Below are positions 28,242-38,105 of a stretch of DNA of 64,000 nucleotides, one piece after another. The DNA is from Litorivivens lipolytica (lineage in GTDB: Bacteria; Pseudomonadota; Gammaproteobacteria; Pseudomonadales; Spongiibacteraceae): NCBI RefSeq assembly GCF_014191715.1, contig NZ_JACHWY010000001.1, positions 124,001 to 188,000 on the forward strand, in the 5' to 3' direction. Positions within the stretch are counted from its first letter, which is position 1. Each line of letters starts with the position of its first letter. A program made the position numbers and the translations under genes. The notes below the pieces were generated by a model, which saw only the letters and a list, made by a program, of their open reading frames with translations, was not told the origin of the DNA and did no database searches.

Positions 28242-29216
28242 TTAATCGAATACCGTAAGATCACTTAATGGGCTCAGTACCGCACGACCGCCGCGATTGA
28301 GAACATGGGTATAAATTTCTGTGGTGCGCACATCACTGTGGCCCAATTGCTCCTGCACAGTTCGAATATCGGCTCCGCGCTCAAGCAGATGGGTAGCGAA
28401 ACTGTGTCGCAGCGAATGACAGCTCGCAGGCTTTTGAATGCCAGCCAATTGAACGCCGCGCTTTACGGCTCGCTGCAAACCTTTCTCATGCATATGGTGT
28501 CGCCGCACCTTAAATGAACGCGGATCAATACTGCGTTTTGACATTGGAAATAGATACTGCCACCCAAATTCGTATGGCGCGCTAGGGTATTTGCGCTCCA
28601 AAGCAAAGGGCAGATAAACCCCATCCCAATCTTCGGCCGCTTTGTCCTGCTCCCAGAATAATCGAGCCTGCGCGATCTGATGCTTAAGCGATGCTACACA
28701 GCTGTCGGCTAGCGTTGTAACTCGCTGTTTGCCACCCTTGGCCTCTCGCACCGTGATAGAAAGCCGCTCTAGGTCGATATCCTTAATCCGCAGCCGACAA
28801 ACCTCCATCAGGCGTAAACCTGAGCCATACATTAACTCTGCACAGAGTCGATGAGGGTGCTCCAGCTGCCGCAGTAAATTACTAACTTCTGCGCGGGAAA
28901 GTACCACAGGCAGCTTTCGCTCTTTCCGAGCTCTGGAAAAGTCGGGAATCTGCAGGTTTTCTCGTTCTAGTACCCGCTTGTACAAATACATCAAGGCGTT
29001 CAGAGCCGTTTTCTGTGTTGAGGGGGTGACATTGCGTTGAACAGCCAGATACTCAAGAAACTGGACAATCGCTGTCTCGTCCAGATTCTTGGGGTGCTCC
29101 ATTTTGTGGAAACGGATGTAATAGACGATCCAATATAGGTAAGTCTGCTCTGTGCGCTTTGCGTAGTTCCGAGCACGCATATGCTGACGGACTGATTCCA
29201 GAAAAGCTGAGGCCAT
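28242..29216 (-). CDS. intI: integron integrase (tyrosine recombinase)
   Basis: Catalyses insertion and excision of gene cassettes between attI and attC. 324 residues. The catalytic set is complete at IntI1-like spacing: Arg135, Lys160, His267, Arg270, His293 and Tyr302 (GSGLRLMEV, CHSLRHSFATHL, LGHSDVRTTEIYTH). The extra segment that separates IntI from XerC/XerD is present at about residues 200-232 (YLPFALERKYP...FGWQYLFP). The gene points away from its cassettes, the classic layout. Expression is probably LexA-repressed (box at 29233-29248). The protein looks functional. Confidence 0.97.
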   Translation of the reverse strand: MASAFLESVRQHMRARNYAKRTEQTYLYWIVYYIRFHKMEHPKNLDETAIVQFLEYLAVQRNVTPSTQKTALNALMYLYKRVLERENLQIPDFSRARKERKLPVVLSRAEVSNLLRQLEHPHRLCAELMYGSGLRLMEVCRLRIKDIDLERLSITVREAKGGKQRVTTLADSCVASLKHQIAQARLFWEQDKAAEDWDGVYLPFALERKYPSAPYEFGWQYLFPMSKRSIDPRSFKVRRHHMHEKGLQRAVKRGVQLAGIQKPASCHSLRHSFATHLLERGADIRTVQEQLGHSDVRTTEIYTHVLNRGGRAVLSPLSDLTVFD

Positions 29217-29379: not shown

Positions 29380-29443
29380 TCGGGATAGTTCGCACGAAGT
29401 CCCGTTATATCGCCCCTCCTTGCCATCTATTTAGCTGTTATGT
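29380..29443 (+). other. attI: attI recombination site (left limit approximate)
   Basis: The insertion point is GTTATGT at 29437-29443, upstream of intI and immediately before cassette 1. The sequence before it has no attC-type inverted repeat, as expected for attI. The left limit is set by the usual size of attI sites, not by a visible motif. Confidence 0.6.
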
Positions 29444-29458
29444 GTTGCGGATGTGACT

Positions 29459-29854
29459 ATGGATCACTGTCAATTTCATTGCTCTGAATGCGGCGAAACC
29501 AGCGACTTGCAGCCAGAAGAAAATGGCGCAATATTTTGTCCGCTCTGTGGTGGTACTAAGGGAAAGTTGGATGTGGGGTTTTCTTTCGGCGTCGCTGCTC
29601 AAATGGACTCTGTGCGGGTCGTGGGGAAAAACGATTCACTACCCAGCAAGAAAAAGCGAAGACTTGAGTACAGGCGGGAGCATTCTTTAACGGTATCCAC
29701 GGGAAGAATGAGTATTCTCGAACGCTTGATTGATAAAGAAAATGACATCTATCGAGAGAAAATAATAGATAAGGAAAGCGGAGAGATCATTCATTCTGAT
29801 GAAGAGCCGTTAACGGATCATACTGGTCATGGTTCTGCAAAGAAAAACACATAA
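29459..29854 (+). CDS. cassette 1: zinc-ribbon hypothetical protein
   Basis: About 131 residues, not recognised. The N terminus has two CxxC pairs (CSEC near residue 9, CPLC near residue 28) forming a zinc ribbon. The middle and C-terminal parts are charged and probably partly disordered, ending in a GHGSAKKNT tail. ATG 29459 is used; a GTG two codons earlier is possible. The stop TAA is the TAA of the attC inverse core ACATAAC. As the first cassette it should be the one best expressed from Pc. Confidence 0.65.
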   Translation: MDHCQFHCSECGETSDLQPEENGAIFCPLCGGTKGKLDVGFSFGVAAQMDSVRVVGKNDSLPSKKKRRLEYRREHSLTVSTGRMSILERLIDKENDIYREKIIDKESGEIIHSDEEPLTDHTGHGSAKKNT

Positions 29855-29932
29855 CAAGGCCAATCACCGCGACGTATTTTTCGTTGCGCCTGCGGCTCCA
29901 CAAAAAATACGCGCGTGTTGGCGGCGTTAGGC
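29849..29932 (+). repeat. attC: attC of cassette 1 (family A)
   Basis: From ACATAAC to core GTTAGGC. The inner arms GACGTATTTTT/AAAAATACGCGCGTG-type pair around a GCGCCTGCGGC centre. Nearly identical to the attC sites of cassettes 2, 5 and 12. Confidence 0.93.
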
Positions 29933-29954
29933 ATCAAAACATCTGGAGATCGTT

Positions 29955-30164
29955 ATGGCTGCTCGGGATAGATATTCATATGGAGTGGAATGCCCAAAAT
30001 GTCACCAAAAAGGGATATTTCATGTATCAGAAAACGACTATCCGTTCATGAAACGATTAGACAGAACCGTTGATCGTATTGAAGGAGAGTTCTCGGCTTC
30101 AGTAGATCGAGACAGTAAAGTTCAGGCATTGTGTAAGAATTGCAACGAGGCATTCTCCGGCTAA
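29955..30164 (+). CDS. cassette 2, first gene: small zinc-ribbon protein
   Basis: 69 residues, not recognised. Two CxxC pairs (CPKC about residue 13, CKNC about residue 62) bracket a basic and acidic middle, giving a zinc-ribbon-like outline. ATG 29955 has GGAG-like sequence upstream (CTGGAGATCGTT). It ends at a TAA inside GGCTAAC, which looks like an inverse core but has no matching core. A second zinc-ribbon gene follows 30 bases later in the same cassette. Confidence 0.6.
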   Translation: MAARDRYSYGVECPKCHQKGIFHVSENDYPFMKRLDRTVDRIEGEFSASVDRDSKVQALCKNCNEAFSG

Positions 30165-30194
30165 CGTGTGTAAATAATTATTAGGAGCATAGCT

Positions 30195-30377
30195 ATGGGG
30201 TGGAACTACGAAACTTCCTGTGAAAAATGCGGCGCTAAAGTCCGGATTGTTGAGCGCCCAATGGGGGTTCCCGGGGGCAAAGATAAAGAACAAGCATATT
30301 GCCCCAAATGTCATGCTCTCGTTGCAGAGCATATGACCGACGGATTCATTGACGCGCAGTTAATCCCCGAAGATTAA
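30195..30377 (+). CDS. cassette 2, second gene: small zinc-ribbon protein
   Basis: 60 residues. CEKC near residue 9 and CPKC near residue 37 define a zinc ribbon, and the C terminus is acidic. AGGAG at 30183-30187 sits eight bases before ATG 30195, a strong ribosome-binding site. It shares cassette 2 with another zinc-ribbon gene, unusual because most cassettes carry one gene. Function unknown. Confidence 0.62.
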   Translation: MGWNYETSCEKCGAKVRIVERPMGVPGGKDKEQAYCPKCHALVAEHMTDGFIDAQLIPED

Positions 30378-30380
30378 AAT

Positions 30381-30464
30381 GCCTAACAAGGCCAAGCACC
30401 GCGACGTATTTTTCGTTCCGCCTGAGGCTCCACAAAAAATACGCGCGTGTTGGCGGCGTTAGGC
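30381..30464 (+). repeat. attC: attC of cassette 2 (family A)
   Basis: GCCTAAC at 30381 to GTTAGGC at 30458-30464. Family A sequence with a few substitutions (CGTTCCGCCTGAGGC centre). Confidence 0.93.
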
Positions 30465-30487
30465 ATTCTTAACTATCGGAGTAAATA

Positions 30488-31027
30488 ATGAGATTGTTGA
30501 TTTTAGTTGTATCTGTATTTTTTATGTCTGCTTGCAGTACTAATGAGCAAGTTCGTCAGCCGCATGAAATAGAAAACACAGTCACTCTTGAATATTTTGG
30601 GTCAAGGAATGATATTTTTCGCTCAGGCGATCAAGCAGTCTTTACAACAAATATTCAGGCAAAGGAAAGCCCTGCCAATTCCAATTATCGTGTCGATTTT
30701 CCTCTTTCTTATGCTGTGTTTTGTAATGCGCAAAAGTCTGAATGTAAGCATGCGGTAGTAAAATCCTCTATTAAATATAAAGTTGTTAAGTCGGAACCAG
30801 GGCTTTTAACTCTTGTAGGTACATTCTCCTCCGAGATGGGTCGCTCTAAATCATTGGAGTCCTCTCTTTCTAGGTCTGGAAATAAAACAACGTCCAGCGT
30901 CGCTAGTGGAGTCCCCATAATTTCAGAAGAGAGGCAAGAAAGAGATATTTATCTTGCTCTTGCGAAAGGAGAAAAAGTCATATTAAACGGCATCTCAGGA
31001 GATAGGGTTGCCTTATATGTGCAATAA
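30488..31027 (+). CDS. cassette 3: lipoprotein of unknown function
   Basis: 179 residues. A clear lipoprotein signal peptide ends in lipobox MSAC. The mature part is Ser/Lys/Val-rich with beta-strand character and two cysteines in FCNAQKSECKH that could pair in the periplasm. Codon use is visibly AT-richer than the backbone, a sign of transfer. CGGAG precedes ATG 30488. No family recognised. Confidence 0.68.
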   Translation: MRLLILVVSVFFMSACSTNEQVRQPHEIENTVTLEYFGSRNDIFRSGDQAVFTTNIQAKESPANSNYRVDFPLSYAVFCNAQKSECKHAVVKSSIKYKVVKSEPGLLTLVGTFSSEMGRSKSLESSLSRSGNKTTSSVASGVPIISEERQERDIYLALAKGEKVILNGISGDRVALYVQ

Positions 31028-31120
31028 GCCTAACAAAGTGTTGTTGTCGCAGCGCGAAAGAGCCCGCGCTGCTGGGACGCCTTCGCTGACGCTCCGGCGC
31101 CCCAAAACACGGCGTTAGCT
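31028..31120 (+). repeat. attC: attC of cassette 3
   Basis: GCCTAAC at 31028 to GTTAGCT at 31114-31120. Inner arms GTGTTGTTGTCGC and the matching 3' part with CAAAACACGGC; sequence unlike family A. Confidence 0.88.
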
Positions 31121-31135
31121 CTCTAGGAGTATCGG

Positions 31136-31546
31136 GTGGATACCAATGAAGGAAGAGTTTACTTCTCTCTAGATGGTGATGATTTTGATCCAGATGAAAT
31201 GACCATATTTCTGGGGATTGAACCAACATCAATTAGACGTAAAGGCTCAAAGGTTCCCGGCAAAATTCCGAAAATGAATTCATGGGAGCTTTCAACTGAA
31301 AATATTGTTAACGAATACATCGATGTATTTGAAATGTCCACAGAGATAGTCAACAAACTAAAGGCCAAGAAGGAGCTTATTCTTCAGGCAAAGGACCGAT
31401 TCAACGTCTTGCCAAGATTTGAAGTGGTTTTATGGTTTTCCATGAATGAAGAGCATTCAACTCCTGCAATAGGTTTCGAAGTTGAAACAGTAGAGTTTTT
31501 GGGTGAAATTGGTGCATTTGTTGATATTGATACATATAAGCACTAA
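31136..31546 (+). CDS. cassette 4: DUF4279 family protein
   Basis: 136 residues. It matches the DUF4279 outline: an opening beta-strand followed by FDPDEMTIFLGIEPTSIRRKG, then NSWELST and a C-terminal IGFEVETVEFLGEIGAFVDIDTY. Family function is not established; members are common in accessory regions. Translation probably starts at GTG 31136, with AGGAG at 31125-31129. The next in-frame starts lie too far inside the conserved region. Confidence 0.78.
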   Translation: MDTNEGRVYFSLDGDDFDPDEMTIFLGIEPTSIRRKGSKVPGKIPKMNSWELSTENIVNEYIDVFEMSTEIVNKLKAKKELILQAKDRFNVLPRFEVVLWFSMNEEHSTPAIGFEVETVEFLGEIGAFVDIDTYKH

Positions 31547-31554
31547 AGCAAAAG

Positions 31555-31636
31555 AGCTAACAAGCGGCTGCTGTCGGACTGGTAAAAGCTCCGGCTTCGC
31601 CTCCACTTTTACCAGCCGCAGAGCCGAGCGTTAGAT
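31555..31636 (+). repeat. attC: attC of cassette 4
   Basis: AGCTAAC at 31555 to GTTAGAT at 31630-31636. The long arms GGACTGGTAAAAG and CTTTTACCAG pair well. Confidence 0.9.
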
Positions 31637-31638
31637 GT

Positions 31639-32088
31639 ATGCACAAGTTTAGCCTGGTAATAGCTGTTGTAATGGTAGCGCTTTCAGGATGTGCGAATCA
31701 GCGAGTGGTTTTTATTGGTGAGCCTGTTGCGGTCCATAAAAGTCCGAGAGCATGTAGCGATTTTCAGGAAAGGGAAGTGCGGGGATTTGAAGAGGTATGT
31801 ATGAGCGCCGTCTATGAGCTTAACTACCGTGTTTTGAAATACGTGAGTCGTCCATCTTTTGCATCAGAACAGCACTTTTATGGTTTCTATCACTATCAAG
31901 GTGCACCGGCTTACACGGAGTATTCCCCCGCAATATTGGTACTTAAATCGGTGCGCGGCTCTAAAATCTTAGAAAGTATTGCACCGGCAATGAAATTCGG
32001 TGCGGAGTGGAAGTATTGCGAACAAGATAATGAGTTTGGGCAATGTATAGCGTGGCAGTCGGTTGAAGATTATGCGGCAGCTAATTAA
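31639..32088 (+). CDS. cassette 5: lipoprotein of unknown function
   Basis: 149 residues with a lipoprotein signal (lipobox LSGC). The mature part carries four further cysteines (ACSDFQ, EVCMSA, KYCEQD, QCIAW), likely disulfide-linked in the periplasm. Not recognised. ATG lies only eight bases inside the cassette (TTAGATGT-ATG), so any Shine-Dalgarno sequence must come from the preceding attC, and none is obvious there. Translation may therefore depend on the upstream cassette. Confidence 0.66.
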   Translation: MHKFSLVIAVVMVALSGCANQRVVFIGEPVAVHKSPRACSDFQEREVRGFEEVCMSAVYELNYRVLKYVSRPSFASEQHFYGFYHYQGAPAYTEYSPAILVLKSVRGSKILESIAPAMKFGAEWKYCEQDNEFGQCIAWQSVEDYAAAN

Positions 32089-32091
32089 AAC

Positions 32092-32175
32092 ATCTAACAA
32101 GGCCAAGCACCGCGACGTATTTTTCGTTGCGCCTGCGGCTACACAAAAAATACGCGCGTGTTGGCGGCGTTATGG
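32092..32175 (+). repeat. attC: attC of cassette 5 (family A)
   Basis: ATCTAAC at 32092 to GTTATGG at 32169-32175. Family A sequence. Confidence 0.93.
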
Positions 32176-32193
32176 CTCCTGATAGGTTATGAC

Positions 32194-32556
32194 ATGGACG
32201 AAACGAATATTAGGGCTGGCAAAGGATATAGCGTTGGTTTCTTTGGCTTTTTGGCAACAGCACCAGGTCTGCTTAGTATGGGAAACCTCGCGGCCTACGT
32301 AATATTGGCTTTATTCCTGTCTGTATTAGCGCAGGTCTCGCTACGCCATGTCGGCGTCAGCAGCAAGATCACGCTGGTTGGCTTTTCTGTATTTGTGTTT
32401 GGCTCCGGGATTCTTCTGCCCTTTTCCCAAACCAACGGCGGAATGGCAGGCGCGGTGTTAATAGGATATTGGCTTTTATTTGGCCTATTTTTTTACTTCA
32501 GATGCTGGGCTTCTATAAAAACTCACTTAGCAAAAAGCGGTGGCTCAATTGTTTAG
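32194..32556 (+). CDS. cassette 6: small integral membrane protein
   Basis: 120 residues with about four hydrophobic segments and a short charged N terminus (MDETNIRAGKG). Not recognised. ATG 32194 is chosen over the TTG at 32158, which lies in the previous attC. A weak AGG lies ten bases upstream. Expected to sit in the inner membrane. Confidence 0.62.
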   Translation: MDETNIRAGKGYSVGFFGFLATAPGLLSMGNLAAYVILALFLSVLAQVSLRHVGVSSKITLVGFSVFVFGSGILLPFSQTNGGMAGAVLIGYWLLFGLFFYFRCWASIKTHLAKSGGSIV

Positions 32557-32562
32557 TAAAAG

Positions 32563-32664
32563 CCATAACAAGGCGCGTCAATCGCCCGGCAAAAGGCCGC
32601 CGGGCTGGGACGCTTTACTCTCCGCTTCGCTCCGAGTAAACCGCCCTTGCGCGCGGCGTTAATG
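32563..32664 (+). repeat. attC: attC of cassette 6
   Basis: CCATAAC at 32563 to GTTAATG at 32658-32664. Paired arms AAGGCGCG/CGCGCGGCG and a GTTTACTC-type centre. Confidence 0.88.
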
Positions 32665-32965
32665 GGCATGATGGTTTTCGCGTAATTCGCGTGCGGCACT
32701 TCGGTTTGGGTAAAATCCGTGCGCTTCGGAAACTGTGAGCAAGATTAGGGCTAGGTGTGGGTTCTTAACCGCCAGCCCGCTGCGGTAGTTGGTTCCTTCC
32801 TGTTTGGGTTCGGTGGTAAATTGAAGTCCTGCAGTTTCTGGGGTGGGCCACCGCCTAAGGTTCCGCCTGAGCAACTGGCTTGCATGGCTCACTTGGGCAC
32901 CGCAAGCGTCACTTTGTAGCGCAGATTTGTGCAAAAGGAGTTGTAGTGAAAATGTGCCGTCATGC
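32659..32965. other. cassette 7 body: no convincing sense-strand gene
   Basis: A 307-base cassette body between two good attC sites. On the sense strand only very short frames occur. The antisense strand has an open frame of 91 codons (32659-32934) with a segment reading GLAVKNPHLALILL, but no clear start signal was found and it opposes the array. It may be a non-coding cassette, an antisense gene or a promoter-carrying cassette. No promoter was identified with confidence. Confidence 0.6.
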
Positions 32966-33041
32966 CATTAACAAGGTAAGGCAGAGCGACATGAGAACCG
33001 CCGCTTCGCTCTGGTTCTCACGCGCCTGCTTACGGCGTTAG
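32952..33041 (+). CDS. short frame running through attC7 (doubtful)
   Basis: ATG 32952 (or GTG 32946, five bases after AGGAG at 32936-32940) opens a frame of 29 codons that translates the whole of attC7 and stops at the TAG formed by the core GTTAGAA. The ribosome-binding site is the only one in cassette 7. It may be real, but a frame through an attC can arise by chance. Confidence 0.25.
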   Translation: MCRHAINKVRQSDMRTAASLWFSRACLRR

Positions 33042-33043
33042 AA
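32966..33043 (+). repeat. attC: attC of cassette 7
   Basis: CATTAAC at 32966 to GTTAGAA at 33037-33043. Arms ACATGAGAACC/GGTTCTCACGCG pair around a GCCGCTTCGCTCT centre. Confidence 0.9.
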
Positions 33044-33049
33044 GTTGCC

Positions 33050-33286
33050 ATGAAATATACAGATGGTAATCAAGCAAAGGTTGGAGATCAGGTTCTTATT
33101 GGAAAGAAGTACCATGGAGTTGTGGTGGCCGATATAGATGCTGGTGAATATTCAATAGAATACCCAAGAGAGCAATGGAGCTATCTTATTTCAGGGGTAA
33201 TGATTGATACTGACTTCGGGGGCTTGGTTCACTATGATCAAGAGAGCTTAGTTGGCGAAGTTATAGAGTTGGTGAAACGTGGCTGA
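33050..33286 (+). CDS. cassette 8: small conserved hypothetical protein
   Basis: 78 residues, acidic, beta-rich. The pattern GDQVLIGKKYHGVVVADIDAG, then EYPREQWSYL, GVMIDTDFGG and LVHY suggests a compact beta-barrel-like fold of the kind often seen in small immunity or accessory proteins, but no family was assigned. ATG 33050 lies 12 bases inside the cassette with no strong ribosome-binding site. Confidence 0.62.
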   Translation: MKYTDGNQAKVGDQVLIGKKYHGVVVADIDAGEYSIEYPREQWSYLISGVMIDTDFGGLVHYDQESLVGEVIELVKRG

Positions 33287-33292
33287 GATAAC

Positions 33293-33379
33293 TTCTAACC
33301 AGGTGCTGTTGTCGCCGCTACGCGGCTGGGACCTCCGTTGCGCTGCGCTTCACTTCGGCCCCAAAGCAAGGCGTTATGA
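33293..33379 (+). repeat. attC: attC of cassette 8
   Basis: TTCTAAC at 33293 to GTTATGA at 33373-33379. Arms GTGCTGTTGTCGC and the matching CAAAGCAAGGC part. Confidence 0.87.
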
Positions 33380-33400
33380 GTAATCGCAGAGGATGCATAT

Positions 33401-33796
33401 ATGCCGCGTAGAATGACGGCAACCAAGGAAGGAACTCATCAAGTTCTCAAGAACTCCTCATTCGAAAGCTTGGTAGTGAGCTGGCTAATGCAAGATGGAT
33501 GGCAGGTGTTTGTTCCAATTTTGGATAATGGTCACCAGACAGATATTCTCATTTCAGATGGCCCAAATTACCACAGGATACAGGTCAAAACCGTAGAAGC
33601 TGCCGGAGAGGACCACAAGCTTGAGAATCGCTGGCGAGATAGTAGCGTTGATGTTGTGGTCGTTTTCGCGCGGAATGCGAATTGGGGCTATATCATGCCC
33701 GCATTTACTCAAAATCAGCGGCGCCTCAACGCGGAGGGGCATCAAAAGTTCCTCCACACTAAAAAGTCGTTCTTAAAGGCATTTCATAAGCTATGA
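33401..33796 (+). CDS. cassette 9: PD-(D/E)XK-like nuclease
   Basis: 131 residues, a single compact domain. A Glu in the first helix (Glu22 in SFESLVVSWL), Asp48 in GHQTDILI, and Gln61/Lys63 in RIQVKTVE reproduce the E...D...(Q/E)xK core of the PD-(D/E)XK superfamily, in the size range of archaeal Holliday-junction or homing-type nucleases. A GAGGATGCATAT stretch precedes ATG 33401. No partner methylase or accessory gene is in the cassette. DNA cleavage is inferred from the motif; defence or recombination roles are both open. Confidence 0.72.
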   Translation: MPRRMTATKEGTHQVLKNSSFESLVVSWLMQDGWQVFVPILDNGHQTDILISDGPNYHRIQVKTVEAAGEDHKLENRWRDSSVDVVVVFARNANWGYIMPAFTQNQRRLNAEGHQKFLHTKKSFLKAFHKL

Positions 33797-33800
33797 AAAC

Positions 33801-33890
33801 TCATAACAAGTGGCGGCAATACGCACCCTGCGGGTGCCGGACGCCAAAAACGCTGCGCTTATTTTGGCGCCGTTGCGCCAGGCGTTAAGT
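33801..33890 (+). repeat. attC: attC of cassette 9 (family B)
   Basis: TCATAAC at 33801 to GTTAAGT at 33884-33890. Almost identical to the attC of cassette 11. Confidence 0.93.
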
Positions 33891-33903
33891 GCTAAGGAGA
33901 GTT

Positions 33904-34479
33904 ATGGCTCAGAATCCGTTTTATGTTTATGCGCTTAAAGACCCGAGGCAAAAACCAGCCAAGCCGTTCTATATCGGAAAGGGCACCGGAAATCGTGCTT
34001 GGGAGCATCTGAACGAAGTATCTGATTCAGAGAAGAGTGGAGTAATTCAAGAAATTCACGATGCGGGGCTCAAAGTTTTGCATACGGTGATTTCAGATAA
34101 CCTTACCGAAGAACAAGCTTTAAAAATTGAAGCAGAGTTAATCTCGGCATTTGGCATTCGTTCTCAAGGTGGTTTGCTTACAAATCGAGTTAGGCCAAAC
34201 CCAGAAAACATTTCAAAAAAAGTTAAAGTCAATATTCCAGAGGGGTGCTACGAAAAGGCACAGATGGGATTGGATTTTATAAAATCAGCAATAATGGAGC
34301 TTGCTAAGGCTAATCCGTCAGGTATTAAAAACTCAGATGCCGCCAAATATCTTGGGCTTCAGTCTGATTATGGTGGCGGCTCTAAAGATTACTTAAGCTA
34401 CAGCATTCTGGGTATTTTAATGAAAGAGGGTCGGATGGTGCGCAATGAGAAAAAGAAACATGTTGCCAAATCCGAGTAA
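33904..34479 (+). CDS. cassette 10: GIY-YIG nuclease-domain protein
   Basis: 191 residues. The GIY-YIG fold is clear: YVY at residues 7-9, YIG at 23-25, Arg31 in GNRAWEHL, a Glu-containing helix (EEQALKIEAELISAFG) and a closing Asn (LLTNRV). It resembles the LEM-3/COG3680 branch. The C-terminal part (about 100-191) looks like a helical winged-helix-type DNA-binding domain (SGIKNSDAAKYLGL...SYSILGILMKEGRMVR). AAGGAG precedes ATG 33904. Probably a DNA-cleaving protein; target unknown. Confidence 0.82.
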   Translation: MAQNPFYVYALKDPRQKPAKPFYIGKGTGNRAWEHLNEVSDSEKSGVIQEIHDAGLKVLHTVISDNLTEEQALKIEAELISAFGIRSQGGLLTNRVRPNPENISKKVKVNIPEGCYEKAQMGLDFIKSAIMELAKANPSGIKNSDAAKYLGLQSDYGGGSKDYLSYSILGILMKEGRMVRNEKKKHVAKSE

Positions 34480-34482
34480 AGC

Positions 34483-34554
34483 ACTTAACAAGCGCATGTT
34501 GTCGGACTGGTTTTCCGCTGCGCTCCAAACCAGCCGCAAATGCGGGCGTTAGGT
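34483..34554 (+). repeat. attC: attC of cassette 10
   Basis: ACTTAAC at 34483 to GTTAGGT at 34548-34554. Short site, arms GCATGTTGTCGGACTGGTTT and AAACCAGCCGCAAATGC. Confidence 0.92.
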
Positions 34555-34557
34555 GCT

Positions 34558-34941
34558 ATGAATCTCTCTACCCTGAAAGCTCGAGCTCAGCAACTGAAGC
34601 AGCATACACTAACGGTCTATTTCGCAGCTCGTGATCCACGCACGCCATTCTTCGTGCGTGTCTTGGCTGTGCTCGTCGCGGCTTACGCGCTCAGTCCCAT
34701 TGACCTGATCCCGGATTTCATTCCTGTTATCGGCTACCTCGACGACATTGTGATTATCCCTCTTGGTTTGGCTGCGGTCGTGCGTCTTACTCCGCCAGCC
34801 GTTCTGGCATCGGCGCGTGCTCAGGCCCAACAAACCGCAAGCCGGCCAGTCAGCTACTCCGCCGCTGTGTTTGTTGTCGTAGTCTGGCTTGCGGTAGGTT
34901 GGCTTATAATCCGTTGGGTCATTAATGCAGCGCGCACCTAA
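34558..34941 (+). CDS. cassette 11: DUF1232 (YkvA-like) membrane protein
   Basis: 127 residues. The DUF1232 signature is complete: ARDPRTPFFVRVLAVLVAAY, ALSPIDLIPDFIPVIGYLDD, then IPLGLAAVVRL; a C-terminal membrane anchor follows. Family role unknown. ATG lies nine bases after the recombination point and the core GTTAGGT itself supplies AGGTG five bases upstream, so the recombination site doubles as ribosome-binding site. The stop TAA is the TAA of the inverse core. Confidence 0.88.
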   Translation: MNLSTLKARAQQLKQHTLTVYFAARDPRTPFFVRVLAVLVAAYALSPIDLIPDFIPVIGYLDDIVIIPLGLAAVVRLTPPAVLASARAQAQQTASRPVSYSAAVFVVVVWLAVGWLIIRWVINAART

Positions 34942-35025
34942 CAAGTGGCGGCAATACGCACCCTCCGGGTGCCGGACGCCAAAAACGCTGCGCTTATTTT
35001 GGCGCCGTTGCGCCAGGCGTTAAAG
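34936..35025 (+). repeat. attC: attC of cassette 11 (family B)
   Basis: ACCTAAC at 34936 to GTTAAAG at 35019-35025. Copy of the cassette 9 attC with one or two differences in the body. Confidence 0.93.
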
Positions 35026-35033
35026 GTTATTTC

Positions 35034-35351
35034 GTGGCGTTGAGAGCGTTTTTTGACAGTTTCGATAAGGTCTTCCTTCCTCTTTGCGTATTAGTTCTAT
35101 GTGCAGCTCTTATGCAATACTTCCGAATAGTAGAGTTGGCCGTAGAAAATAGAATGCTATGGTATTTTTGGGGCGTGCTGTGGGGTTTCAGAATGCTTTA
35201 TCGAGTCCAGTTCGGGTATGAGACTAGGCTTGGGTACGCACGAATTCCGGGCCTGAATAGCGATAATGATAGTTTAGACAGAGCAATTGCGTTTGTAGTT
35301 TGTTTTTCTGTGATGGGGTTAAGTATTTGGCATATAGTAAAAAACCTTTAA
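35034..35351 (+). CDS. cassette 12: small membrane protein
   Basis: 105 residues with about three hydrophobic segments, aromatic-rich middle (MLWYFWGVLWGFRMLYR). Not recognised. It begins at GTG 35034, nine bases after the core, and ends on the TAA of the inverse core CTTTAAC. No strong Shine-Dalgarno is visible. Confidence 0.58.
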   Translation: MALRAFFDSFDKVFLPLCVLVLCAALMQYFRIVELAVENRMLWYFWGVLWGFRMLYRVQFGYETRLGYARIPGLNSDNDSLDRAIAFVVCFSVMGLSIWHIVKNL

Positions 35352-35430
35352 CAAGGCCAAGCACCGCGACGTATTTTTCGTTGCGCCTACGGCTACACAA
35401 AAAAATACGCGCGTGTTGGCGGCGTTAGGC
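35346..35430 (+). repeat. attC: attC of cassette 12 (family A)
   Basis: CTTTAAC at 35346 to GTTAGGC at 35424-35430. Family A, with one extra A in the 3' A-run. Confidence 0.93.
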
Positions 35431-35453
35431 ATCACATCAAGTTGCGGTGGATC

Positions 35454-36347
35454 ATGAAGGCATTGGGAGCGAAACTTGACCTACAACTCTGGCGGATTCC
35501 GTCTGAGATTCCGGAGCATGAGCAAACTTCGATCATTTCAGTCGGGTCAGCATCCGTACGACTGAGAGATACTGGAGGCACTGGAAATTCGTTGGTGTTC
35601 CTCTGTGACCCGCCAATTACCGTTGAGGCATATGACGGTCTGATTAGTGCATTTAGCCCCGATTTCAGGGTGATTGTTGCTGAGGTGCCTGGGTTTGGAT
35701 TCTCACGAGCCTCATCTGGTCGGCAACTATCGTTCACCGGTGCCGTCGAAATTGTTGAGACTGCACTTGCCAGCTTGGAGCTGAAATCCGTCGTTCTATT
35801 CGGCCCCTGCATATGCGGCTTTGTGGCAACTGAAATCGCGTCGCGGGGGAATCTTCCTGTCGCGGGTGTCGTTCTGATGCAAGCTCCGGACAAGGAGGGG
35901 ATGCTGGCCTGGGTAGAACGAATGGACCCGAAAGGTCTACTTCGAGTCCCATTATTCGGTCAGATGCTGCTAAAGCTCAACGCAAAGAAGACGGTAAAGT
36001 TTTGGCTGAAATACGCCACGGCCAAGATTTTCGATCCGAGTTCAATAATTGATGTGACGACCCAATCTTTGGAGGATGGTGGCGGCTACCCTTTAGCGAC
36101 CATGCTGCAATCTTGGTCTGCCGGGACAAAGGATGCCGGCCTCGAAATTCCGGGTTTGATCATTTGGGGGCGACAGGATCGATCTCATTTGGAGACACCG
36201 TCGGAGTGTACCCGCGCACACTTGGTCAACGGTGAGGTCATTGAATTTCCAGATTGCGGCCATTTTTCCGAGTTGGAGAAGCCTGCAGAGTTTGCTGCTA
36301 CGGTCAGGCCATTCTTAAGCCGTTGCCTCGACGGTAGTGATGCCTAA
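35454..36347 (+). CDS. cassette 13: alpha/beta hydrolase with Cys at the nucleophile position
   Basis: 297 residues, alpha/beta-hydrolase fold. The nucleophile elbow reads FGPCICGFV, so Cys119 stands where Ser is usual. The acid is probably Asp242 (IWGRQDRSHLE) and the base His270 (DCGHFSELEKP). The N-terminal part has the expected VFLCDPP oxyanion loop and VPGFGFSRAS motif. Cys-nucleophile hydrolases such as dienelactone hydrolase are active, but sequence cannot tell activity or substrate here. The stop TAA comes from the inverse core GCCTAAC. Base composition is closer to the backbone than in other cassettes. Confidence 0.78.
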   Translation: MKALGAKLDLQLWRIPSEIPEHEQTSIISVGSASVRLRDTGGTGNSLVFLCDPPITVEAYDGLISAFSPDFRVIVAEVPGFGFSRASSGRQLSFTGAVEIVETALASLELKSVVLFGPCICGFVATEIASRGNLPVAGVVLMQAPDKEGMLAWVERMDPKGLLRVPLFGQMLLKLNAKKTVKFWLKYATAKIFDPSSIIDVTTQSLEDGGGYPLATMLQSWSAGTKDAGLEIPGLIIWGRQDRSHLETPSECTRAHLVNGEVIEFPDCGHFSELEKPAEFAATVRPFLSRCLDGSDA

Positions 36348-36440
36348 CAAATCGCTGCAGCGGACATTTGACCCGCCACCTGCTTTTGCTGCCGCAAAAT
36401 CAGGCGTCGCCTCAAATGCCGCTGAGCTCAGGCGTTAGCC
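36342..36440 (+). repeat. attC: attC of cassette 13
   Basis: GCCTAAC at 36342 to GTTAGCC at 36434-36440. Arms AGCGGACATTTGA and TCAAATGCCGCT pair well. Confidence 0.9.
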
Positions 36441-36453
36441 ATAGGAGGTGGCA

Positions 36454-37248
36454 TTGAATTTAAGTGGAATTGCTATAGTCCGGTGTGAGAAGTGTGAGCA
36501 CGATCTAGATATAGATGGATCTGACATTTACATGGATGCAGTCAGCTCAGAGGAACGTGGAATGGGTCCTGAAGTCGAATATGAAGGGGAGCTGGAGTGT
36601 GAGTGCCCTAATTGCGGTAATGTCCTTCTTGTCCGTCACAGCGCTTGGGAATATCCAGTCGGCGCACTAAATTACAGCGAAAATTATGTAAGCGGAGGAG
36701 AGTTAGTTGAAGGTTTTAAGGATATAGATTTCGCTTTCGAAGAAGAAATATATTCGTTTGATGAAACGAGTAAAATTTATCTACCAGAAAGCAAGAAGAT
36801 AATCACCAACCTAGAGTCAGGTGTGGCATCACTTCTTGCTAGCTTATCTTCATCTCCCGATCTTATACACAAAATATCACCTCGTGAATTCGAAGAATTA
36901 ATTGCGCATGTTTTTAGTCGGCACGGTTTTTCTGTAGAGTTGACCAAGAAAACCCGAGATGGGGGGCGAGATATAATTGCGTTGAAGCACGACTTAGGCA
37001 TACCCGTGAAGTACATCATCGAATGCAAGAGGTACGCCAAAACCAATCCAGTTACAGTAGAAATTGCTAGAGCCTTGTACGGCGTCCAAATGCAGGAAAG
37101 TGCAAATAAGTCCGTCATTGCAACTACGTCCTATTTTACAAGCGATGCCAAAAAATTCGTAGAGAGCCAAAACACAACAAAATGGCACATGTCGCTCAAG
37201 GATTATGATGATGTTATTGGCTGGCTTCTACAAACACCAAATGGCTAA
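36454..37248 (+). CDS. cassette 14: Mrr-like restriction endonuclease with N-terminal zinc module
   Basis: About 264 residues. The C-terminal half (about 140-255) is an Mrr/restriction-endonuclease-4-like PD-(D/E)XK domain: ISPREFEELIAHVF, TRDGGRDIIA (Asp173) and YIIECKRY (Glu190, Lys192). The N-terminal third has CEKC and CPNC pairs, a zinc ribbon that could act as sensor or DNA-binding part. TTG 36454 is preferred because AGGAGG ends five bases before it; GTG 36448 overlaps that site. Stop TAA from the inverse core. No methylase nearby; Mrr relatives cut modified DNA. Confidence 0.83.
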   Translation: MNLSGIAIVRCEKCEHDLDIDGSDIYMDAVSSEERGMGPEVEYEGELECECPNCGNVLLVRHSAWEYPVGALNYSENYVSGGELVEGFKDIDFAFEEEIYSFDETSKIYLPESKKIITNLESGVASLLASLSSSPDLIHKISPREFEELIAHVFSRHGFSVELTKKTRDGGRDIIALKHDLGIPVKYIIECKRYAKTNPVTVEIARALYGVQMQESANKSVIATTSYFTSDAKKFVESQNTTKWHMSLKDYDDVIGWLLQTPNG

Positions 37249-37380
37249 CAAGCACGAGCAGTATGCCGCTGAAAAGCGCGGCGGGACAGTCAAAGCTCCG
37301 CACCTTTTTGTGCAATCGCTCCGCTCATTTTTGCACAAAAAGCCGCTCCACTTTGTCTGCCCCTGTCGTGGGCGTTATGT
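37243..37380 (+). repeat. attC: attC of cassette 14 (long form)
   Basis: GGCTAAC at 37243 to GTTATGT at 37374-37380, about 138 bases, the longest here. Central arms TTTTTGTGCAA and TTGCACAAAAA form a strong inner hairpin. Confidence 0.88.
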
Positions 37381-37395
37381 GCTGGAGAGGGTTAG

Positions 37396-37950
37396 ATGCC
37401 GTCAGAACAAAAATTAGAACAAACCAGTTTGGTTGCATGCGATTGTGGCCAGGTAGCTATTGAACTTCAGGGGCGCCCAATCTTAGTTTCTGAGTGCTTA
37501 TGTAATAGCTGTCGCGAGGCGGCAAGTAGATTGGCCAGTTTGCCAGGCGCTAAGAATATTCTTACTTCGTATGGAGCAACCGGCTGCGCTGAATATCGCA
37601 AAGATTGCGTGCGATTCATATCTGGTGCAAAGTACTTGAGAGAATTCAGGCTAACGGCTCGTTCAGGTACACGCCGCGTTATTGCGTCATGTTGCAATAC
37701 GCCAGTTCTTCTAGAATTAAAAGGTGCGCACTGGTTAAGCATTTATTTGCATCTTTGGAAAAATGGTTCAAGACCCGTCGTAAAGCTAAGGACCATGACA
37801 GGGGACCTAGACGACGCATCGATACTTCCAAGCGATGTCCAAAATCTGAAGACGCACTCCTTGTTATTCTATGTGAAACTTCTAGGTGCGTGGATCAAGA
37901 TGGGATTCAAGAATCCTACAATAGAGATCTCTGGAAAAATCGAAGCTTGA
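37396..37950 (+). CDS. cassette 15: GFA-like (CENP-V) zinc protein
   Basis: 184 residues. The opening CDCGQVAIEL and ECLCNSCREAA are the first zinc ligands of the GFA/CENP-V fold, and a later CC pair (SCCNTPVL) stands where the second zinc site is expected. The chain is longer at the C terminus than typical GFA proteins. Members were named for glutathione-dependent formaldehyde activation, but most have no proven activity. GGAGAGG precedes ATG 37396. A second GFA gene at 39435 lies outside the intact array. Confidence 0.72.
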   Translation: MPSEQKLEQTSLVACDCGQVAIELQGRPILVSECLCNSCREAASRLASLPGAKNILTSYGATGCAEYRKDCVRFISGAKYLREFRLTARSGTRRVIASCCNTPVLLELKGAHWLSIYLHLWKNGSRPVVKLRTMTGDLDDASILPSDVQNLKTHSLLFYVKLLGAWIKMGFKNPTIEISGKIEA

Positions 37951-37996
37951 GATCGTCTGACTCGTTTTAAGGCATCAATTATTAAGTGCATCAATC

Positions 37997-38105
37997 ACAT
38001 AACCATACGCTGCTAGGGACGTGGCATATTTGGCCCCTTTTATTGCACAGCTTCGCTAGCAAAAAAGCCGCCAAATATGCCACGCCCCAGAGCTAAGCGT
38101 TATAA
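37997..38105 (+). repeat. attC: attC of cassette 15
   Basis: ACATAAC at 37997 to GTTATAA at 38099-38105. A near-perfect stem GTGGCATATTTGGC / GCCAAATATGCCAC dominates. Confidence 0.92.

Follow-up and report, generated by a model that had tools for sequence, protein, structure and literature searches.

An acidic paired-cysteine domain joined to an Mrr-type nuclease in an integron cassette, and its recurrence on other proteins

What is the N-terminal part of a small, cassette-borne nuclease for? The question is raised by a gene on the plus strand of the window (by which we mean the whole 64,000-nucleotide stretch of Litorivivens lipolytica DNA analysed here), an open frame at 36454..37248 that encodes 264 amino acids from a TTG start. 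The original prediction, made from the letters alone, described an Mrr-like endonuclease preceded by a zinc ribbon and some 80 residues of unassigned sequence, and proposed that this N-terminal part might sense modified or foreign DNA. We find the nuclease to be as described; the region in front of it is a separate acidic domain that recurs on several kinds of protein, and this changes what it is likely to sense.

The gene itself appears to be intact and maintained. An alternative in-frame GTG at 36448 would give a product of 266 amino acids; we prefer the TTG because an AGGAGG ribosome-binding site is found at 36443..36448 (+) and because a homologue carried by Alcanivorax sp. DSM 26293 (G273/L009, whose DNA is that of L050), with 76% identity across 264 residues, has a TTG at the equivalent position with AGGAG ahead of it. 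The two genes share 69.4% identity in DNA and 76.1% in protein, and their differences fall at the first, second and third codon positions in the numbers 62, 27 and 153 (dN 0.18, dS saturated), from which we conclude that the gene is under purifying selection. With a leader of 19 nt, fourteenth place in its array and no promoter-like match just upstream (plus strand, 35378-36453), it is probably expressed only poorly in its present position; the 2.2-kb region as a whole has four promoter-like matches, about as many as chance would give (2.5 ± 1.5 in shuffles). A 5-bp hairpin, GCCAT-AGGAG-GTGGC, encloses the ribosome-binding site at the start of the cassette (36438-36452) and is not conserved in the Alcanivorax copy. 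In plasmids, 234 records match the protein, none with 80% coverage of it; four phage records match, all over the nuclease part only, and no match was returned from E. coli genomes or, with the protein as a single query, from viral contigs.

The setting is a chromosomal integron. The integrase gene intI (28242..29216, minus strand; TIGR02249 at 3.4e-134, 447 bits against a cut-off of 265; Phage_integrase at 6.5e-39) faces an array of 15 cassettes (29438-38099) that begins at an attI core, GTTATGT, at 29437..29443 (+). We walked the array by a self-match rule, in which the first seven bases of a cassette, taken with the preceding G, recur as an exact reverse complement in the 7-mer with which the attC at the other end of that cassette begins. 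Applied from the attI core at 29437 onwards, this rule steps through 15 cassettes before it fails, and the gene studied here lies in the fourteenth, the number first given to it. Cassette 14 (36435..37374, +; 940 bp) carries a single gene. It opens with the core GTTAGCC (36434-36440) at the end of the attC of cassette 13 (36342..36440, +; 55.4 bits), which is complementary to the R'' element GGCTAAC at 37243 in its own attC (37243..37380, +; 138 bp, 62.8 bits). The alignment of the attC sites yields a 23-pair consensus hairpin, and at 17 of these pairs both sides have changed in one or more sequences. A covariance model of the sites recovers all 15 training sites and no other site in the 64-kb window. 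The locus thus has the parts of an integron gene cassette: intI, attI and an attC-delimited unit with one open reading frame in the direction of the array.

Several neighbouring cassettes are of interest in their own right. Cassette 9 (33374..33884, +) encodes a small PDDEXK_5 protein (33401-33796) whose match, at 7.4e-6 and 26.5 bits, is barely above the cut-off of 26.1. Cassette 10 (33885..34548, +) encodes a GIY-YIG protein (33889-34479; PF22945, 9.7e-11), the first 88 residues of which also match PADLOC PD-T4-3 (8.5e-15). Counting the marginal PDDEXK_5, the Mrr domain is indeed the third nuclease fold in 4 kb, the three lying within 3.85 kb (33401-37248). The array opens with several small cysteine-pair proteins: cassette 1 (29453-29854) has CxxC and weak zinc-ribbon matches under cut-off, and cassette 2 (29927-30458) has two short plus-strand frames, 77 and 67 amino acids long from stop to stop and both with CxxC pairs. 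Cassette 7 (32659-33037) has no plus-strand frame above 56 amino acids and is perhaps non-coding. The attachment sites of cassettes 1, 2, 5 and 12 (29849-29932, 30381-30464, 32092-32175 and 35346-35430) are near copies of one another, while their genes differ.

The C-terminal part of the protein is an Mrr-type PD-(D/E)XK nuclease domain (36808..37245, +). Residues 138-257 match Mrr_cat (PF04471) at 1.5e-26 (93.2 bits, cut-off 21). The catalytic residues Asp173 (36970..36972, +) and Glu190-Cys-Lys192 (37021..37029, +) are numbered exactly as in the original prediction, and the Asp, Glu and Lys are identical in all ten aligned proteins. Structure comparison with VIA places the domain nearest to AF1548 (Z 14.4, rmsd 2.4, 112 residues), followed by MspJI (Z 13.2, rmsd 3.0, 131 residues) and AspBHI (Z 12.8, rmsd 3.4, 130 residues). 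The top PADLOC match is mREase_IV (residues 127-237, 1e-13); a match to PDC-S02 (residues 136-241, 6.1e-13) covers only positions 191-293 of the 334 in the model and is therefore not whole-length. The PADLOC matches are confined to the nuclease part, with the N-terminal domain outside them, so that the likeness to the PDC-S02 and mREase_IV candidates is limited to an Mrr-type nuclease. Among 24 Mrr loci, 15 were read (14 directly, L054 through its duplicate L029), of which eight have the acidic N-terminal domain and seven do not. Other N-terminal parts are seen on the same Mrr subfamily in L022, L064 and L065 and in L026 and L061; one group shares a 'DKDWGY' stretch, and another looks by eye like a P-loop ATPase. 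Since the subfamily has different N-terminal parts elsewhere, we regard the nuclease as a shared effector. In one Mrr subfamily the N-terminal domain turns up repeatedly (8 of 24 loci, 15 read), and in that sense it is a common family part, but one for which no known role was found.

An AlphaFold2 model built from a 31-row alignment (mean pLDDT 87.0, pTM 0.57) resolves the N-terminal region as one all-beta domain, residues 2-96 (36457..36741, +). Its seven strands are predicted at pLDDT 85-98 over residue blocks 1-90 (mostly so over residues 2-91 in the full model), and the domain modelled alone reaches pLDDT 88.0 and pTM 0.74. It is followed by a linker at residues 97-118 (model residues 96-117; 36742..36807, +) that is predicted to be flexible, with pLDDT under 50. 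What had been taken for about 80 unassigned residues is thus, by prediction, the remainder of a single beta domain, some 95 residues long in all, and the flexible linker of about 22 that follows it. The signature of the domain consists of two CxxC pairs and the motifs ER-x-MG and EYP. The pairs stand at residues 11-14 (C11, C14; 36484..36495, +) and 51-54 (C51, C54; 36604..36615, +), which bears out the CxxC...CxxC module noted at the outset. C14, C51 and C54 are present in all ten homologues and C11 in nine, the frame of the tenth (L051) beginning after C11; an extra cysteine, C49, is retained in only two of the ten. The four conserved cysteines presumably hold a zinc ion. The label 'zinc ribbon' is borne out by the conserved pairs but not by any named zinc-ribbon family, for which the best scores are under cut-off (HVO_2753_ZBP, 17.1 bits against 33.2; best in NCBIfam, 15.3 bits against 61).

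Does the domain have a name? The domain search proposed with the original prediction returned no family above cut-off in Pfam, NCBIfam or PADLOC for the window protein, nor for the same domain in ten relatives, where PADLOC, used without curated cut-offs, gave one match on the domain (L035 to HEC-08, 0.019). On the window protein, the 10 Pfam families listed at E ≤ 1 do not include Mrr_N (PF14338), and SRA has no Pfam match at that threshold, structure comparison being unable to exclude a fold. PHROGs gave weak matches to phrog_2834 (function not annotated) in two of six proteins (L052, 5.2e-4; L044, 0.005). Foldseek returned 323 matches of the domain to the PDB up to E 10, none at 0.001 (best 0.47), and none at 0.001 in BFVD (best 0.05); in VIA none of 1000 comparisons reached Z 5 (best 4.9). 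Among the weak structural look-alikes are S27e (1qxf, Z 3.8) and the N-terminal domains of MCM (Z up to 4.2), both of them nucleic-acid-binding zinc-ribbon proteins; unrelated rows score equally well. Against PDB sequences, the best E-value of the domain profile is 0.077, and the whole protein has nothing at 0.01. A literature search covering few subscription papers found, among the matches listed, none that describes the domain or the architecture.

The domain is not confined to nucleases of the Mrr type. A whole-genome search with the window protein gave two matches confined to its first 93 residues, on proteins that lack the nuclease (in genomes G057 and G118). After removal of duplicates, the partners fall into several types. 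Ten proteins are Mrr fusions (the window protein, L050, L051, L052, L053, L029, L055, L056, L058 and L060), among which the window protein represents the smallest nuclease-bearing form of the domain that we have seen. Six have two hydrophobic segments and a coiled coil (L036-L040, L048) and two are glycine-rich (L041, L028); the terms 'membrane-type' and 'glycine-zipper' for these partners reflect our reading of their sequences, and Gly-zipper models on domain carriers stay under cut-off. Two carry a PIN domain (L045 and L046; PIN_8, PF18476, at 2.8e-43 for L045, the only one scanned, with L046 alike by translation), and in one the domain sits at the C-terminus of GajA (L077/L098). There are further two other long partners (L078, L097) and seven short or stand-alone forms (L031, L032, L035, L042, L043, L044, L049), besides the truncated or broken copies L047, L079, L080 and L094. 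Three proteins (L033, L081, L096) show an R-x4-H motif, which we take to be that of HEPN, yet they match no Pfam family; we keep this partner as HEPN-like, unproven. L097 scores 25.6 bits against HEPN_RES_NTD1, below the cut-off of 27.4.

In a tree of the domain, clades track the type of partner, with seven label changes for seven groups where the minimum is six; the tree is compatible with a single or a multiple origin of the Mrr fusion and shows neither. The CxxC pairs are missing from an alphaproteobacterial branch (L033, L077, L078), the Cys-less domain forming a separate branch of the tree (100/100), and the cysteines are also lost in L081. Because they are lost in the GajA-fused domain as well as in L033, L078 and L081, the fold may not need a metal in every branch. 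The domain is rare and scattered. It was found in 3 of 398 genomes of the phylum, with a narrower model in 1 of 369 genomes of the class (the window's own), and with a model of the Cys-less branch in 3 of 240 genomes of the class of G670; copies are seen in Pseudomonadota, Bacteroidota, Thermodesulfobacteriota, Cyanobacteriota and Bacillota.

We also asked how often the domain travels in cassettes. The attC model was run on 32 domain-bearing loci (L080, L094, L096, L097 and duplicates left out) and gave 27 matches in 8 of them, every one on the strand of the domain gene, against a single match, perhaps a true attC (L016, 3.8e-12), in 35 control loci without the domain. An attC lies within 100 bp of the domain gene at 7 of 15 loci from the genome scan (L036-L041, L047), and all four loci with an attC on both sides obey the self-match rule, the upstream match of L036 being weak (E 0.047). 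Two candidate observations were set aside. The Alcanivorax copy (L050) has the same GTTAGCC and GGCTAAC ends but no attC at E ≤ 0.05, perhaps because its attC has decayed. A link by co-occurrence with intI was dropped as well; intI is over cut-off in 6 of 13 domain-bearing genomes searched, for which 0 of 14 control genomes is the sole base rate. In G000 the integrase and the domain gene are on one contig, in G273, G057 and G118 on separate ones.

One of the fusions joins the domain to a known anti-virus system. In genome G670 it stands at the end of a 718-residue frame (L098:231-2387, stop to stop), the part ahead of it matching PADLOC GajA at 1.9e-208 over profile positions 103-582 of 600; the match stops before the domain. 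In Pfam the GajA part is AAA_15 and an OLD-like TOPRIM. The next frame (L098:2388-4208) matches PADLOC GajB at 2.1e-167, and L098:231-4208 therefore reads as a Gabija gajA with an additional C-terminal domain, adjoining gajB. Further copies of the domain adjoin AbiJ-NTD4 genes. None of the membrane-type, PIN_8, stand-alone and HEPN-like carriers that were tested is assigned to a defence family by PADLOC. With copies on several further proteins, among them one from Gabija, the domain is more likely to act as a switch or a sensor than to read modified DNA.

The charge of the domain points the same way. Its net charge is -7 to -22 and its pI 4.05-4.71 in 28 of 28 copies, which are related, so that the values are not independent. 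The mean charge of -0.143 per residue is matched by 0.8% of 1163 90-residue stretches from 41 window proteins, and the -0.179 of the window copy is reached by none of them; the mildest copies, at -0.08, are equalled by 13% of ordinary stretches. As a control we used the Mrr_N domains of 10 genomes of the same order (present in 10 of 95 searched). In these 10 canonical Mrr proteins Mrr_N is near neutral (-0.058 to +0.106 per residue, mean +0.015), whereas the 10 Mrr-fused copies of our domain lie between -0.09 and -0.22, with no overlap (Mann-Whitney p-value 1.8e-4, which is not a true probability, the sequences being related). In all ten homologues the N-terminal part with the linker has a net charge of -12 to -22 and the nuclease part one of 0 to +10. 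So acidic a domain argues against the reading of modified DNA, though a local nucleic-acid-binding patch is still compatible with the net charge. Mainly because the domain is acidic where Mrr_N is near neutral, we have given up the term 'modified-DNA sensor' for 'protein-binding or masking module'.

How, then, is the protein best explained? We consider it about evenly balanced whether the window protein is a single-gene defence nuclease, carried by a cassette, in which the acidic zinc domain either binds to a protein that acts as trigger or holds the nuclease in check. A defence role is suggested by the association of the domain with effector-type and defence genes. The GIY-YIG cassette nearby, with its match to PD-T4-3, and the copies of the domain next to AbiJ-NTD4 genes or to a type ISP restriction enzyme with a GHKL-type ATPase fit such a role. 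A rather unlikely alternative is a Type IV, modification-dependent enzyme built like MspJI, with an N-terminal domain that recognises a modified base and an Mrr-type domain that cuts nearby. It draws on the structural alignments given above, in which the second and third matches, MspJI and AspBHI, are modification-dependent, on mREase_IV as the top PADLOC match, and on the layout of MspJI, in which an SRA-like domain and Mrr-cat occur in the same order as in the window protein (PMC3874153, partial text). Likeness in the nuclease is, however, silent on what is sensed; according to the same partial text, nuclease similarity does not fix the modification preference (PMC3874153). The N-terminal domain, for its part, is strongly acidic and without an SRA or Mrr_N match in Pfam at E ≤ 1. 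The same module is found on PIN_8-type, GajA and membrane-type proteins and alone, where a reader of DNA bases would be needless, so that the sensing of modified or foreign DNA, as first proposed, is unsupported, and it is unlikely that the domain itself reads a modified base. What stands of that proposal is a separate domain that is plausibly a sensor or regulator.

Opposite net charges on the two parts of all ten homologues, joined by a predicted flexible linker of about 22 residues, suggest a different arrangement, in which the domain acts as a DNA mimic, its acidic face filling the nuclease cleft and keeping the enzyme off until proteolysis, loss of zinc or binding of a partner. We think this improbable as the full explanation: the domain also occurs alone and on proteins without an evident nuclease, and no confident contact between the domains is predicted (whole-protein pTM 0.57). 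The protein might also have nothing to do with defence, being a housekeeping or stress DNA-processing protein or the product of a silent passenger cassette, as array position 14, the 19-nt leader and chance-level promoter-like matches would allow; but the purifying selection between distant copies, the intact catalytic residues and the repeated fusion to effector-type domains, that to Gabija included, make this very doubtful.

Under the reading of a defence nuclease with a protein-binding or masking domain, the N-terminal part would be a transferable regulator that either recognises a protein which the invader makes or exposes, or serves as an acidic lid over a basic surface of the nuclease. 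On infection it would release or recruit the nuclease, and the freed nuclease would then cut phage (or all) DNA. As cassette 14, the gene may be a stored defence until it is shuffled closer to attI or read through. Such an enzyme would differ from known relatives. It shares with EcoKMrr the C-terminal Mrr_cat PD-(D/E)XK nuclease with D...E-x-K, but EcoKMrr has an N-terminal winged-helix Mrr_N (PMC3874153, partial text) in place of an acidic all-beta CxxC domain; since Mrr_N was tested for and not found, the window protein is not EcoKMrr proper. With MspJI and AspBHI it shares an N-terminal recognition part (for the window protein, a probable sensor) ahead of an Mrr-type nuclease, yet MspJI has an SRA-like domain where the window protein has, as far as our searches go, none and instead an acidic domain of about 95 residues. 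In the Gabija variant the domain is a Cys-less relative at the C-terminus of GajA, whose nuclease, an ABC-ATPase with OLD-like TOPRIM, is unrelated to that of the window. What is new is a known nuclease joined to an unnamed acidic module that is recurrent and travels in cassettes. The nearest parallel in habit is the defence genes of Vibrio and mobile-integron cassettes, which the gene resembles as a single small frame with its own attC (here in a chromosomal integron, in a host other than a named Vibrio). In the available parts of two reports, integron cassettes of no assigned function often confer phage resistance (PMC12409362, PMC12444791): 16 of 179 V. cholerae cassettes were active against phage when tested, cassette-borne restriction genes and systems being small (PMC12409362), and phage resistance amounts to 20% for cassettes without predicted function (PMC12444791).

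It is tempting to go further. More tentatively, the CxxC / ER-x-MG / EYP domain may be a general-purpose trigger module of bacterial immunity: a small acidic fold responding to some widely shared mark of infection, probably a protein, that has become attached to effectors of at least the Mrr, PIN_8-type, GajA and membrane kinds and is spread in part by integron cassettes. If the domain is such a shared sensor, the trigger of a 264-residue, single-gene system would also explain the Gabija variant and the PIN_8-type and membrane-type cassette proteins, which at present lack a functional name. Integrons would then be shuffling one sensor joined to different effectors, and 'hypothetical' cassette genes would become a testable family with a simple signature.

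Some further loci show features worth recording. The contig of L036 in G118, which has attC sites and the domain gene, also has a partial integron-integrase match (G118:C6:19102-19335; 6.6e-29, below cut-off), perhaps a decayed intI. In a cassette of Bacterioplanes sanyensis (L041:7970-8815), a second small hydrophobic frame overlaps the end of the domain gene in another reading frame, before the attC, and the cassette possibly holds two genes. On a Phaeobacter plasmid (L078:1-5113), a type ISP restriction enzyme, a GHKL-type ATPase and a 374-amino-acid protein with the Cys-less domain at its start lie head to tail, a gene set that is possibly a defence operon.
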